From assembly GCF_013409625.1 (NCBI RefSeq), contig NZ_JACCBF010000001.1, forward strand, positions 4,715,001 to 4,779,000: DNA of 64,000 nucleotides, in the 5' to 3' direction. The notes under the pieces are model-generated. The model was given only the letters and a program-made list of their open reading frames with translations, was not told the DNA's origin and did no database searches. The stretch comes from Nocardioides kongjuensis (GTDB taxonomy: Bacteria; Actinomycetota; Actinomycetes; Propionibacteriales; Nocardioidaceae). The position numbers and the translations under genes are program-made. Shown here one piece after another: positions 41,238-59,467 of the stretch; position 1 is the first letter of the stretch, and the number at the start of each line of letters is the position of its first letter.

Positions 41238-42580
41238 ACGAGATGCGGACCCTGCTGCACGAGGCGGCGGCGACCCCGCCCGCCGACGACATCGACCTGG
41301 CGGCCGTGCTCGCCGGCGGCCGTCGGCGGGTACGACGGCGCCGGGCGCGCGTCGCCGGGGGCCTGGCCGTCGCGGTGGTCGGCGTGGTCGCCGTGAGCAC
41401 GCTCGTCGGCCGCGGGTCCGACGGCCGGGACACGCCGGCGGCGAGCGTCGTACCGCGCCCGGACGGGCCGGTCGTCCGGCTGTCCGACGCCCACCGGGCC
41501 AAGGCGGGCGTCGACTACGACCTGCTGTCGTCGTACACGAACAAGGACCTCGACGCCGCCAACGGGCAGTACTACGACGGCGTCACCGACGACGGGAAGA
41601 TCCTGTTCCGCGACGGCCCGCACGGGCCGCAGAACAAGATCCGCTACGCCCTGCTCGACCCCGCCACGGGCGCGAAGGACTGGCTGCCGCCGATCGACAC
41701 GGGAGACCAGGTCTGGCCGACCGAGCTCGGTGCCGACCGGTTGGTGCTGGCCTACGCGCCACCCGACGACGGCGCCGACCTGGTGGGACGGCTCCGGGCC
41801 TACGTCTACGACCGGGCGGCCCGGTCCTGGTCGAGCGTCACCTGGCCCACGCTGCCCCGGGTGTCGGGTCTTCGCAGCCCGGTGATGGGGCCCGACGACC
41901 GGTTGTACGTCGGTGTCCCGGCGACGGTCGGCTCGCCGCCCCCCGGCGGCTGGCCGACAGGACCCGACGGGGAGGCCGACGACGCGGACGCCGAGGGTGA
42001 CACCTACGACCTGTGGTCGGTCTCGCTGACGGATCCCTCCGACGTGCGCGACGAGGGCTTGCGTGTCGGTGCCGTCGCGTTCACCGGCGACACCATGGTC
42101 TGGAGCGCCCGCGCCAACGGGAAGAACGACCGGATCCACGTCCGCGACCTCGCCACCGGCGCCGAGCACGACTTCGACCCGCACTCCGGCAAGCGGTGCA
42201 ACCTGCTCGGATTCGGGGCGGTGGGAGACCGGATCGTGCTCAGCCAGTACTGCGGCACCTACGACGACGGCCGCGACGACCGGGTCCAGGTCCTCACCAC
42301 CGACGGCGACCTGGTCACCACGATCCAGGGCAGCGGCATCGACGGCTGGGCGACCGGCGGGCTCCTGCGGGTGACGTCCTACGCGCGCAACCGGGCCGGG
42401 ACCTACGTCTACGAGCTCGACAGCGGCCGCTTCGTGCGCGTGTCCGACGCCAACTCGTCGTACGGGCTCGGTGGGCCGGTGCCCGACGGCTACCTGCTGT
42501 GGGACACGCCCGTCGGTAGGTCGAGCGGCCCGCAGGAGCCGATCCCCGGCGCCACCCAGTGGCTGGCGAGGTGGCGCTGA
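41231..42580 (+). CDS. membrane protein, probable anti-sigma partner
   Basis: The 449-residue protein has a cytoplasmic N-terminal segment ([30 protein letters not shown]), one membrane helix ([19 protein letters not shown]) and a large extracytoplasmic beta-propeller-like domain with repeated strands ([41 protein letters not shown]). The start overlaps the sigma gene by 7 nt, so it is probably its anti-sigma factor and sensor; no zinc-finger anti-sigma motif is present. Ligand unknown. Confidence 0.72.
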
Positions 42581-42634: not shown

Positions 42635-42640
42635 GACAAT
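42635..42640 (+). promoter_or_regulatory. -10 box for the hemB leader ORF
   Basis: GACAAT lies exactly 6 nt before the GTG of the 24-codon leader ORF. The same hexamer and spacing occur before hemL (47729-47734), which suggests leaderless transcripts from matching promoters for two heme genes. Confidence 0.5.
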
Positions 42641-42646
42641 GGCGGG

Positions 42647-42721
42647 GTGAATCACCCCACGAAGCTCTGCGCCTTCCCCGCTGCGCTCTCCCGACGCACA
42701 ACGTCGTGGGGACCCCGATGA
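42647..42721 (+). CDS. 24-residue leader ORF upstream of hemB
   Basis: A GTG-initiated ORF encodes [24 protein letters not shown]; its TGA overlaps the hemB ATG (ATGA). A near copy, 64 of 75 bases identical and of the same length, lies at 57920-57994 on the other strand in front of a different gene. CCCCACGA (42655-42662) can pair with TCGTGGGG (42704-42711), which contains the hemB ribosome binding site (GGGGA, 42708-42712); translation of the leader would open this stem. Thus it is probably a translational coupling or attenuation device. Whether the peptide itself acts is unknown. Confidence 0.65.
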
Positions 42722-43713
42722 ACGAGATCCTGCGACCGATCGTCCGTCCCCGTCGCCTGCGGACCTCGGCGGCGATGCGCGACCTCGTCGCCGAGACCAC
42801 CCTGCGTCCCGAGCAGCTGGTGCTGCCCGCGTTCGTGCGCGAGGGTGCCAGCGAGCCGACGCCGATCAGCTCGATGCCGGGCGTCGTCCAGCACACGCGG
42901 GACTCGCTGCGCAAGGCGGCGGTCGAGGCGGCGGAGGCGGGGCTGCGCGGGATCATGCTGTTCGGCGTGCCGCAGGCCAAGGACGCCACCGGGACCGGCG
43001 CCACCGACCCCGACGGGATCCTCAACGTCGCGATCGCCGACGTCGTCAGCGAGGTCGGCGACGCACTGGTCGTGATGGGCGACCTGTGCCTCGACGAGTT
43101 CACCGACCACGGCCACTGCGGCGTCCTCGACGCGGCCGGTCGGGTCGACAACGACGCCACCCTGGAGCGCTACGCCGACATGGCCGTCGTCCAGGCGCAG
43201 GCCGGCGCCGGCATGGTCGGGCCCAGCGGCATGATGGACGGCCAGGTCGCGGTGATCCGCGCGGCCCTCGACGGCGCCGGGCTCACCGACACCGGGATCC
43301 TCGCCTACTCGGCGAAGTACGCCTCGGCCTTCTTCGGCCCCTTCCGCGAGGCCGTCGACAGCTCCCTGCAGGGCGACCGCCGGACCTACCAGCAGGACGG
43401 GCGGCGCAACGCCAACGAGGGCGTCCGCGAGGCCCTGCTCGACATCGAGGAAGGCGCCGACGTCGTCATGGTGAAGCCGGCGCTGGCCTACCTGGACGTA
43501 TTGCGCCGTGTGGCCGATGCGGCCAGCGAGCTCGGCGTGCCGACGGCGGCGTACAACATCTCAGGGGAGTACGCCATGCTCGAGGCCGCCGCGGCGCACG
43601 GCTGGATCGACCGCGAGCCCGCGATCCTCGAGACGCTCACCTCGATCCGGCGGGCCGGCGCGGACATCATCCTCACCTACTGGGCCACCGAAGCCGCCGG
43701 CCTGCTGCGCTGA
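42718..43713 (+). CDS. hemB: porphobilinogen synthase (delta-aminolevulinate dehydratase)
   Basis: HemB condenses two 5-aminolevulinates to porphobilinogen. The 331-residue enzyme has [50 protein letters not shown], the catalytic Lys segments [17 protein letters not shown] and [11 protein letters not shown], and [11 protein letters not shown]. The ATG at 42718 overlaps the stop of the 24-codon leader ORF; the leader frame and the SD-containing stem suggest coupled translation. The 3' end overlaps the convergent glycosyltransferase gene by 41 bp. Confidence 0.96.
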
Positions 43714-56544: not shown

Positions 56545-56937
56545 TCACATCGCGACGAGTGCCGTCACGCCGAGCGCGACGCCGGACAGGTAGGTCAGCA
56601 TCGCGCCGGAGTCGCGGACCGGGCCGTGCGCGGCGAGCGTCCAGGTCAGCATGCCGAAGGCGTGCACGAACCGGGCCGTGGTGGCGGCGACGGCCAGCGC
56701 GTCGAGCCACCATCCGTCGGTCAGTGTCGAGCAGACGACGAGGAGAACGACGAGCGTCGGGACGTACTCGGCGGCGTTGCCGTGCGCCCGCTGCGCGATG
56801 AGCAGGCGGTCGGCCGGGTCGGTCGGCATCTGCGGCCCCTCCGCGCCCCGGATCGCCCGGTGCCGGGTGACGTTGGCGCCGAGGACGAACAGCAGGATGC
56901 CCATCAGGGCGATGCAGGTGATCACGATGGTGCTCAT
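56545..56937 (-). CDS. MAPEG-family membrane protein
   Basis: The 130-residue, four-helix protein has RAHGNAAEYVPTLVVLLV (the MAPEG glutathione-binding helix pattern with R..NxxE) and RFVHAFGMLTWT. MAPEG enzymes are membrane glutathione transferases or isomerases; in bacteria a thiol cofactor is presumed. The ATG overlaps the GshB-like stop by 4 nt, so it belongs to the EgtA-like/GshB-like operon, which could supply that thiol. Confidence 0.85.
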   Translation of the reverse strand: MSTIVITCIALMGILLFVLGANVTRHRAIRGAEGPQMPTDPADRLLIAQRAHGNAAEYVPTLVVLLVVCSTLTDGWWLDALAVAATTARFVHAFGMLTWTLAAHGPVRDSGAMLTYLSGVALGVTALVAM

Positions 56938-57923
56938 GCGATGGCCTCTTCTCTCGGGAGGACGTGCGGGAGGACGTGGGGGAGGAGCCGGCGCAGGGTC
57001 GCGCCGGACAGGTCGGTGCCCAGCAGGGCGTCGGTCTTGCTCGTGCCGCCGGGGCAGGTCACGTTGACCTCGATCAGCCGGCCGTCGATCACGTCGAGGC
57101 CGGCGACGGCGATGCCGTGGCGGGCGAGCAGCGGGGCGACCGCGGCGACGATGCGCCGGTCGGCGGCGTCGACGCTCGCGGGCGCGGACGGCGGACCGAT
57201 CCGGAAGTCACCGGGCTCGAGGTGCCGCAGCACCGCTCCGATCAGCTCGCCGTCGACGAGGAACAGCCGCTTGTTGCCGCGGGACACGGCACCGAGGTGG
57301 GCCTGGGCGATCACGTGCCGCCGGCCGCCGGAGGTCGCCGACTCGGCCAGCGCCCGGGCGGCCGCGTCGTCGTGGAGCAGCCACACGTCGAGACCGCCGA
57401 AGCCGTCGACCGGCTTCACCACCACCGCGCCGTGCTCGGCCACGAACCGCCGTACCTGCTCGGGATCCGGGCTCACCAGGGTCGGTGGGCACAGCTCCGG
57501 GAAGCGCAGTGCGACCAGCTTCTCGTGCAGCGCCCGCACGCCCGCCGGTCGGTTGACGACGCGGGTGCCGGCGGACTCGACCAGGTCGAGGAGGTAGGTC
57601 GTGTGCAGGTACCGCGCGTCGACCGGCGGGTCGATCCGCAGCAGCACGAGCTGGGCGGTGGCGGCGACGTCGACCGTGCCCGGTGACCCGACGTGGCACC
57701 AGGGGCTGCTGACCCGCCACCGGTGGTCGCCCCCGCGGCTGCGCGGCCCGATCGTCACCGGGGCGGCCCGGGCGACCACGCGCCCGGCGCGCACCTCGAG
57801 GTCCTCGGGCGTGCAGACCCGGACGGCGATGCCGAGGTCCTGGGCCGCGGCGACCAGGCCGACGGTCGCGTCGACCGCCGGGTCCAGGCCGGCCCACGGG
57901 TCGGCGACGACCAGGATGCTCAC
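56934..57923 (-). CDS. GshB-like ATP-grasp ligase
   Basis: The 329-residue protein resembles prokaryotic glutathione synthetase: LLRIDPPVDARYLHTTYLLDL (about 94-114), RVVNRPAGVRALHEKL, VVVKPVDGFGGLDVWLL (about 167-183) and EVNVTCPGG (285-293) correspond to the substrate and ATP-grasp motifs. It probably adds an amino acid, glycine in GshB, to a gamma-glutamylcysteine-type substrate. GTG 57923 overlaps the stop of a 24-codon ORF. Actinobacteria mostly use mycothiol, so the product is uncertain; another peptide-like thiol is possible. Confidence 0.8.
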   Translation of the reverse strand: MSILVVADPWAGLDPAVDATVGLVAAAQDLGIAVRVCTPEDLEVRAGRVVARAAPVTIGPRSRGGDHRWRVSSPWCHVGSPGTVDVAATAQLVLLRIDPPVDARYLHTTYLLDLVESAGTRVVNRPAGVRALHEKLVALRFPELCPPTLVSPDPEQVRRFVAEHGAVVVKPVDGFGGLDVWLLHDDAAARALAESATSGGRRHVIAQAHLGAVSRGNKRLFLVDGELIGAVLRHLEPGDFRIGPPSAPASVDAADRRIVAAVAPLLARHGIAVAGLDVIDGRLIEVNVTCPGGTSKTDALLGTDLSGATLRRLLPHVLPHVLPREEAIA

Positions 57924-57994
57924 CGGGGTCCCCGCGACGTCGTGTGCCGGGGGAGCGCAGCGGGCCAGGCGCAGGACTTCGTGGGGTGGTTCAC
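57920..57994 (-). CDS. 24-residue coupled ORF between EgtA-like and GshB-like genes
   Basis: The GTG overlaps the stop of the EgtA-like gene (GTGA) and the TGA overlaps the GTG of the GshB-like gene. The product reads VNHPTK-S-CA-W-PAAL-P-R-H-TTS-R-GPR, matching the hemB leader ORF (42647-42721) in 17 or more aligned residues and 64 of 75 bases. The stem CCCCACGA/TCGCGGGG again covers the downstream ribosome binding site. Either a tiny protein or a translational relay. Confidence 0.65.
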   Translation of the reverse strand: MNHPTKSCAWPAALPRHTTSRGPR

Positions 57995-58965
57995 GCCGCT
58001 GCCCTCCGCGTGGAGCCGGCCAGCAGGGCCAGCCCGCGCCCGGCGTCGCAGGTGCCCGCGGCGGCGTCGGCCCAGTGCTCGGCGAGCCGGTCGCGCTCGC
58101 CGGAGAGCGAGGCGAGGGCGGCGCGACGGTGCTCGTCGTCGTACAGGAGGCGGGCGAGGCCGTGCAGCAGGTCGGCGACCTCGCGGGCCGGACGGGCGTC
58201 GGGGAAGCGGACCTCCAGGTAGCGCCCGCGGGGGCGCACCGGCGGGAACAGGGTGCTCAGGTGCGCCTCGACGCCCGCGCCGAGGAAGTCGGTGGCCCCG
58301 GCCGCGAACGAGGCGTACGCCGTGACCGGGTCCTCGCCGTGCAGCAGCCGGTCGTCGAAGGCGGTGCGCCCCGGGTCGACCGACAGCCAGGTGGTGAGCC
58401 GGCCATCGGGGCCGGTGCTGCGCGCGGTCGCGGCGGCGAGGAACGGGCCGGCGAGCAGCAGCACGCGCCACTGCTCGACGCCGGCGGAACCCGGCCACCA
58501 GTCCAGGCAGGCCTGGGTGGAGGCGGTGGACCGCATCATCCGGCGTCCGGCCGGGCCGACCGCGTCGAGGTGGCGCTCCATGGCGTCGTACCGCGGGGTG
58601 CGCAGGCGTCGCGGCGTGGCCGGCTCGCAGCGACGGACCGGCCGGGCGTCGAGGACGATCGAGTGCGGCTGGAGGTCGCGCCCGAGCGCGTCGGTGACCT
58701 CGGCGAGGTGCCGGGCGGCGGCGTCGGGTGACGGGGCGGACGGCAGGCTGAGCTCCACCTGGCCGCCGGGCTCGAAGCTCAACCACGGCGCGTACCAGCG
58801 GCCTGCGGTCGCCTCGCGGACCCGCGCCGGCGCGACGCTGCCACCGCTGAACAGGCCCATCGCGAAGAGCTCCTGCTCGACGGCGACCCGCACCGTCCGG
58901 GTGCTGCCGGGCAGCTGCGGGCGGAACAGCCGGGCCACTGCGGACCGGATCGATCGTGCATCCAT
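57991..58965 (-). CDS. EgtA-like glutamate-cysteine ligase
   Basis: The 324-residue protein has the GCS2/EgtA hallmarks VAVEQELF (27-34), SFEPGGQVELS (63-73), MMRSTASTQACLDW (143-156) and HLSTLFPPVRPRGRYLEVR (234-252). EgtA makes gamma-glutamylcysteine for ergothioneine; here no egtB-E genes are near, and a GshB-like ligase follows, so a gamma-glutamylcysteine or glutathione-type product is inferred. It is shorter than EgtA (about 430). ATG 58965 has AGGAG upstream. It heads the operon opposite the MarR gene. Confidence 0.82.
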   Translation of the reverse strand: MDARSIRSAVARLFRPQLPGSTRTVRVAVEQELFAMGLFSGGSVAPARVREATAGRWYAPWLSFEPGGQVELSLPSAPSPDAAARHLAEVTDALGRDLQPHSIVLDARPVRRCEPATPRRLRTPRYDAMERHLDAVGPAGRRMMRSTASTQACLDWWPGSAGVEQWRVLLLAGPFLAAATARSTGPDGRLTTWLSVDPGRTAFDDRLLHGEDPVTAYASFAAGATDFLGAGVEAHLSTLFPPVRPRGRYLEVRFPDARPAREVADLLHGLARLLYDDEHRRAALASLSGERDRLAEHWADAAAGTCDAGRGLALLAGSTRRAAA

Positions 58966-58975
58966 GGCATCTCCT

Positions 58976-59017
58976 GATAATGTAAGGCTGCCTGTCGATA
59001 ATGGAAGGTAACCTGTC
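58976..59017. promoter_or_regulatory. two 21-bp tandem operators, EgtA-like/MarR gap
   Basis: GATAATGTAAGGCTGCCTGTC (58976-58996) and GATAATGGAAGGTAACCTGTC (58997-59017) are direct repeats at a 21-bp period, two helix turns, each with an internal AAGG-N3-CCT dyad. They fill the 55-bp gap between the divergent EgtA-like and MarR genes. Likely sites of the MarR regulator. On the minus strand TACATT within the first repeat could be the operon's -10. Confidence 0.75.
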
Positions 59018-59020
59018 GAT

Positions 59021-59467
59021 ATGTCAAGAGAACTGATCCGGCCGGACCGGGAGCCGCTGATCGCGCTCGTCGACAAGACCGCTCGGGTGATGCGAGCGGA
59101 CATGGTCGCCGGTGCGCACCGCGCCGGGTTCGCCGAGGTCGCGCCGTCGCACAACGCGGTGTTCGCGACCCTGCCGCCCGAGGGCGCTCGCGCCGCCGAC
59201 ATGGCCGCCCGGGCCGGGATCACCCGCCAGTCGATGGGCGAGGTGGTCCGCGACATGGTGCGGCTGGGGATGCTCGAGATGGTCCCGGACCCGACGGACG
59301 GCCGGGCGAAGCTGGTGACCTACACCGACTACGGCAGGCAGGTCGCCCAGGCCGGCATGGACCACATCAACGCCCTCGACCGGATGTTCCGCGACGAGCT
59401 CGGCGAGGCGGAGTACGAGGCCGCACGCCGCGTCCTCGCGCGCGTCCGGGAGCTGCTCACGCCGTGA
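59021..59467 (+). CDS. MarR-family regulator
   Basis: The 148-residue protein has a MarR winged helix (RAADMAARAGITRQSMGEVVRDMVRLGMLEMVPDPTDGRAKLV in consecutive segments) with dimerisation helices at both ends. No conserved redox Cys is present, so OhrR-like peroxide sensing is unlikely. It is divergent from the EgtA-like operon across paired 21-bp repeats, and is the probable repressor. The 3' end overlaps the convergent MFS gene by 11 bp. Confidence 0.88.
   Translation: MSRELIRPDREPLIALVDKTARVMRADMVAGAHRAGFAEVAPSHNAVFATLPPEGARAADMAARAGITRQSMGEVVRDMVRLGMLEMVPDPTDGRAKLVTYTDYGRQVAQAGMDHINALDRMFRDELGEAEYEAARRVLARVRELLTP

Follow-up and report, generated by a model that had tools for sequence, protein, structure and literature searches.

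A short, apparently mobile hairpin repeat carrying a probable coupling mini-ORF at start codons in Nocardioides

Why does a 24-codon ORF of Nocardioides kongjuensis end on the start codon of hemB, and why does a near copy of identical length end on the start codon of a different gene in the same window, the 64,000-nt stretch of DNA analyzed here? Copy 1 occupies 42647..42721 on the forward strand and reads from GTG to TGA; its right end, ATGA, is the present start of hemB (porphobilinogen synthase, 42718..43713, forward strand), and its left end, GTGA, is the former one. Within it, the arms CCCCACGA (42655..42662) and TCGTGGGG (42704..42711) of a hairpin enclose a loop core, CGCTGCGCTC (42679..42688), and a -10-like hexamer, GACAAT (42635..42640), precedes the leader GTG by 6 nt, all on the forward strand. 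Copy 2, at 57920..57994 on the reverse strand, is likewise a GTG-to-TGA ORF of 24 codons (peptide VNHPTKSCAWPAALPRHTTSRGPR), and matches copy 1 at 64 of 75 positions. The initial annotation had reported both ORFs together with their stop-start overlaps, correctly in each case, and had proposed that the leader may gate hemB translation, the element being a tiny protein, an attenuator dependent on a Cys codon, or a mobile cassette equipped with a coupling signal of its own. That interpretation as a whole is partly supported by our analysis, and the mobile cassette is the one option of the three that the evidence favors.

Two genes of the same strand flank copy 2. The upstream gene (57991..59256, reverse strand) encodes a glutamate-cysteine ligase family 2 domain (Pfam GCS2) and its own TGA forms the left end of the element; the downstream gene (56934..57923, reverse strand) is glutathione synthetase-like, with Pfam GSH-S domains, and its own GTG forms the right end. 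The element is also present at this site in one relative (G042) and was not found there in another (G056). The usual thiol of actinobacteria is mycothiol. The succession of a GCS2-type ligase gene and a glutathione synthetase-like gene at 56934-59256 on the reverse strand suggests, from domain content, glutathione synthesis in an actinobacterium; the NCBIfam glutathione synthetase equivalogs score below their cut-offs on the gene at 56934..57923.

The 75-nt stretch is repeated in the genome far beyond chance. A blastn search of the single 5.67-Mb contig at E 10 or less returned 34 matches, of which 18 were true copies (17 at E 5.6e-7 or better and one at 0.012) and the other 16 were short. The initial annotation had suggested a covariance search for further copies, and this proved productive: a model built from 17 aligned copies identified at least 29 in the same genome, the weakest at E 1.5e-8, a lower bound given that 150 of 10201 first-look candidates were scored, and more in other actinobacterial genera. 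Across a genus sample that included our own genome, 47 of 59 genomes matched at E 0.01 and 12 had no match, with 0 to 51 copies each; the highest number, 51, belongs to a 4.6-Mb genome (G030). At E 0.001 the model matched 48 of 196 genomes in an order sample (7 of 29 genera) and 32 of 296 in a class sample (18 of 114 genera), while a second model, derived from 20 short copies of about 56 nt, matched 46 of 394 class genomes at E 1e-4 (23 of 137 genera). Matches to the second model span eleven labeled families, own genus and family included, the start-codon architecture described below having been read in the 149 loci examined for ends and not in all eleven. A strict pattern scan of named genomes, and thus a lower bound, yielded 40 stretches, mostly from Nocardioides, with others in Pimelobacter simplex, Microlunatus speluncae, Flexivirga caeni, Flexivirga endophytica and Leekyejoonella antrihumi. 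Collections of plasmids and phages contained no match to the element at blastn E 0.001. Literature searches using sequence strings of the element returned nothing on bacterial repeats, as judged by title, and searches on repeats in Nocardioides and actinobacteria returned no description of the element.

Focusing on the ends of the copies, we found that all 29 in the genome begin with DTGA, and that in 27 of them a frame of 60 or more open codons terminates at this left TGA. The stop codon of the mini-ORF overlaps a downstream RTG in 22 of 29, six copies run on in frame, and one does neither. These 29 are the only census not selected on ends. The other 120 of the 149 copies examined include the best match of each genome (L056-L108) and loci found with a pattern that requires an intact RTGA right end (L109-L148); three of 152 model matches were removed because their context was identical, and double counting persists for at least one copy (L071/L144). 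Among these 120, 85 are coupled, 8 fused, 13 read through the right end before stopping and 14 have no left TGA. Where both TGAs are present, the distance between them is 2 mod 3 in 22 of 23 own and 85 of 90 other copies (107 of 113 in total), distributed over twelve length classes (44, 50, 53, 56, 59, 62, 65, 68, 71, 74, 77 and 107 nt); the six exceptions measure 51, 55, 64, 66, 66 and 72 nt. Own units are mostly 65 or 71 nt, and two are 107 nt. Frames open for at least 60 codons lie on both sides of 21 of 29 own copies and 148 of 764 DTGA sites in the window, a nominal P of 9e-10. Because the copies are related, and because many of those from other genomes were selected for an intact right end, this value overstates the case; firmer ground is provided by the count in our own genome and by the variety of length classes.

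Judged by reading frames, many insertion sites are overlaps between the stop of one gene and the start of the next. At hemB the preceding long frame ends at 42580; the left TGA there closes a frame other than that of the preceding gene, and copy 1 therefore sits on the hemB start itself. Two loci (L048 and L052) hold 110-nt variants with an extra loop stretch and a second CGCTTCGCTC core, their TGAs still 2 mod 3 apart. At six others (L041, L042, L043, L044, L050 and L055) the frame of the element continues in frame, apparently adding about 22-26 residues to the N-terminus of the protein. Candidate tandem regions resolved in six of seven cases into chains of 22-25-codon ORFs with periods of 65, 71 or 74, in which each ORF overlaps the next by 4 nt and the chain ends in a frame open for at least 79 codons; the one exception, L317, had no detected left end.

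We compared these sites with the corresponding junctions of relatives. The covariance model finds the element in one of 30 hemB loci (the 30 best of 58 matched genomes). In a relative whose hemB is 93% identical (G034), the junction reads GGACAATGGGCGGGTGAACGAG, where the window has GGACAATGGCGGGGTGA, the element and then ATGAACGAG, and the hemB site is empty in a second relative (G014) as well. Extending the comparison to 17 further own sites (17 of 24 own segments were used for the orthologue search) and seven relatives chosen by closest hemB, the model found the element in 8 of 81 best-match orthologous junctions. Of the eighteen own sites considered, 16 could be set against a relative without the element. 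Excising one unit while keeping one TGA restored the junction of a relative at nine of these 16, hemB included; at the nine clean sites the best relative matched at 37-46 of 47 positions ungapped, and mis-spaced excisions reached 34 at most. The other seven gave no clean empty site: L034, L036, L038 and L039 have diverged, and L004, L010 and L051 match better when mis-spaced. Outside the 16 comparable sites, L042 is without the right TGA and L033 is without an element-lacking relative.

As read from these junctions, an insertion is shown to add 3n+2 nt, DTGA becoming DTGA-[3n+2 nt]-RTGA with TGA on both sides. Relatives have TTGA at L010 (alaS by eye), so that D may stand for A, G or T. The right flank reads ATGA at hemB and L037 against GTGA in the relative; either just TGA is duplicated, or the right ATGA arrives with the element. 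From its presence and absence among relatives, the element is apparently mobile.

We propose, with a probability of roughly 0.85, that the element is a short, apparently mobile hairpin repeat, which targets DTGA start codons and brings with it a coupling mini-ORF. Insertion at such a codon would add 3n+2 nt and leave TGA on both sides; the old start codon would then begin the mini-ORF, the stop of which, as read from the sequence, forms a 4-nt overlap with the start of the gene behind it. The mini-ORF would carry the ribosome to the new overlap, where re-initiation could occur, and this delivery may be why the insertion is tolerated. At hemB, the mRNA probably now starts at the GTG of the mini-ORF, with hemB expressed by termination-reinitiation: ribosomes would initiate on the leader, terminate at 42719-42721 and begin again at the hemB ATG that overlaps this stop. 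Consistent with such a history are the hemB starts of relatives. All 11 of the closest of the 30 loci (our own and L171-L180) have a [TG]AnnnT hexamer 6-7 nt ahead of the start codon, and scanning the other spacings at these 11 starts found one further hexamer. This placement suggests a leaderless hemB mRNA, and hence that the ancestral hemB start was leaderless.

If delivery of the ribosome is what matters, the frame of the mini-ORF and its peptide should have fared differently. The 29 own mini-ORFs use three frames, beginning MNHPTK, MITPP or MKSPHEV (the last in L040 only), and three copies (L046, L047 and L054) change frame internally, with additional bases at the right end restoring the overlap. 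The initial annotation had asked whether the frame is kept in related species, and it is, in 7 of 7 scored orthologous pairs. The same pairs (seven of eight, L052/L296 being left out) show 14 synonymous and 33 non-synonymous differences, for a pN/pS of 0.99, and thus the peptide sequence shows no visible selection on this comparison. A frame that is kept and a peptide that is not are what selection for ribosome delivery would leave.

The hairpin is conserved in a different manner. In four alignments, stem covariation exceeded the shuffled value, with none of 500 shuffles as high: 0.216 versus 0.106 for the 17 seed copies (A3), 0.299 versus 0.093 for 85 copies including the seed (A4), 0.225 versus 0.074 for 67 copies (A5) and 0.292 versus 0.090 for 20 short copies (A6). 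Covariation was also above slid controls in all four. The alignments share some of their members, and the sequences are related; fitting A4 and A5 to the model favors the structure, and A6 was aligned without the model, its structure being chosen by eye. The loop motif CGCTnCGCT occurs in every copy of A3 (17 of 17) and in every short copy of A6 (20 of 20), and two distant matches (L156 and L158) are without it. Two-sided changes outnumber one-sided changes by 176 to 11 in A4, 114 to 9 in A5 and 27 to 0 in A6. RNA helices usually pass through more G-U intermediates. With so few one-sided changes, a better guess than pairing in RNA is therefore that DNA strands pair as the element moves or during repair, and the two-sided Watson-Crick changes hint at DNA-level pairing during mobilization.

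These observations bear directly on what else the element might be. The gating proposal of the initial annotation describes a selected hemB leader or attenuator, in which translation of the 24 codons, or stalling at the Cys codon, opens a hairpin that masks the hemB start. Much of its anatomy exists, namely the ORF, the overlap and the arms, and the pairing of CCCCACGA with TCGTGGGG is real and covaries family-wide. The masking part found no support: in the minimum-energy RNA fold of the hemB context, CACCCC pairs instead with GGGGTG just upstream (18 of 200 shuffles are as stable), leaving a masked hemB ribosome site unsupported by folding for copy 1. The link to hemB is confined to one of 30 loci in the genus, the element standing elsewhere before other genes, and Cys is found at codon 8 in just 4 of 29 copies, that of hemB among them. 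We rejected both the selected leader and the Cys attenuator on these grounds; gating of hemB is at most a by-product, and a selected leader is very improbable. A more general form of regulation, a structured RNA such as an RNase site or a ribosome standby site that was selected and spread by regulating operons rather than selfishly, would account for the conserved loop core, the strong covariation and the sense orientation of the copies at starts in our genome. It sits poorly with the rarity of one-sided, G-U type changes, with the patchy presence at orthologous junctions, and with tandem arrays and in-frame fusions, and a search of the window against Rfam gave no match above the gathering score. 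We consider a structured RNA of this kind improbable.

The peptides are alike in many copies, as a functional microprotein family (VNHPTK...GPR) would require, but the use of three frames and the pN/pS ratio contradict the tiny protein of the initial annotation, and an NCBIfam search with four of the mini-ORF peptides found no match; we rejected such a family, the likelihood of which is slight indeed. Similarly, a single hairpin, conserved flanking bases and DNA-like covariation would all suit a repeat of the REP/REPIN type moved by a RAYT or IS200/IS605 Y1 transposase. REP/REPIN sequences are short dispersed hairpin repeats near genes that occur with a RAYT transposase, and the element shares this form and placement; it differs in making coding mini-ORFs at start codons and in its company, since the Y1 domain (PF01797, E 1e-4) was found in none of 25 genus genomes, 13 of them holding 18 to 51 copies each and the other 12 without a match to the covariance model. 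A control search with PF01797 gave matches in 5 of 14 known genomes. The REP/RAYT reading was rejected for want of a Y1 transposase in those 25 genomes, and we give it next to no weight, save for an enzyme that is too diverged for PF01797 or that acted from outside them. Two other known systems resemble the mobile repeat that we favor in part. Rickettsia palindromic elements are tolerated in frame within coding sequence, as are the six fused copies of 29 here, whereas insertion here usually yields a coupled mini-ORF at the start of a gene. The cysteine leader peptides and attenuators of actinobacteria are short ORFs preceding a gene, which the hemB copy with its Cys codon recalls; in the present family, however, the Cys is not conserved and the copies show no link to one pathway.

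The initial annotation knew of no named family of this kind, yet PMC12548453 describes one in the mycobacterial MIRUs, as short, apparently mobile sequences that insert at start codons and contain an ORF of their own, coupled at -4 nt to the gene. A typing review (PMC3914561) gives their size as 46-101 bp, in 41 loci of H37Rv, as tandem repeats, and a title cited in both sources (PMC12548453, PMC3914561) places the first description in a two-component operon. Our element is likewise small and dispersed, interspersed at 29 loci with TGA-TGA distances of 44-107 nt over all genomes; it inserts at start codons and couples at -4 nt (22 of 29 copies coupled, clean empty sites at nine of 16 comparable sites); and it forms tandem arrays (six of seven regions, with periods of 65, 71 or 74). 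It differs in its hosts, which are Nocardioides and other non-mycobacterial genera, in having a long covarying hairpin where the DNA fold of the MIRU292 unit is no better than that of shuffles (103 of 200 as good), and in showing no similarity beyond a 10-mer loop core in opposite orientation. This 10-mer, GAGCGMAGCG, is carried by the MIRU292 unit as given in PMC7977185 and by a mycobacterial primer in PMC7509140. It is the reverse complement of our loop core CGCTKCGCTC, and it also arises in 337 and 39 of 20000 shuffles of these two mycobacterial sequences. The published MIRU292 unit is 53 nt long, which is 2 mod 3, and when reversed is bounded by ATGAC in tandem. The shared loop core is, at the level of sequence, a lead only. 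The same design is present, any kinship in sequence would rest on this 10-mer, and we therefore file the element as MIRU-like and not as a MIRU.

One of the own copies stands at a junction of particular relevance to this comparison. At L053 (G000:C1:5156197-5156270) the element separates a histidine kinase, which has HisKA and HATPase domains, from a response regulator for which RegX3 is the best match of solved structure (347 bits, the next at 209); the NCBIfam equivalogs shown for kinase and regulator stay below their cut-offs. Seven of seven relatives lack the element at this site, and the empty site of G034 matches at 46 of 47 positions. The operon in which Supply et al. discovered MIRUs in 1997 was reportedly senX3-regX3, and we take the L053 junction to be the apparent counterpart of that two-component junction. 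In another genome, the start sequence behind the element at L101 is by eye the same as at L053.

A broader grouping may be entertained tentatively, and we regard it as somewhat doubtful: a superfamily of actinobacterial "start-codon elements" (ATGA, a hairpin with a CGCTnCGCT loop, ATGA) that includes the MIRUs, would be moved by an unrecognised DTGA-targeting DNA-hairpin enzyme and would survive by virtue of its own coupling. A scan of our genome with the left-end pattern (at most two mismatches) placed all 15 matches within known copies; this pattern, which detects 15 of the 29 copies, thus revealed no longer element with such an end in this genome.

Our findings suggest that the strategy of MIRUs is not a mycobacterial oddity, as a repeat without alignable MIRU sequence behaves alike in Nocardioides. 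The insertions could supply many natural pairs of start codons, before and after, for studying termination-reinitiation, and the movement of MIRU-like repeats, an old question, becomes testable outside pathogens.
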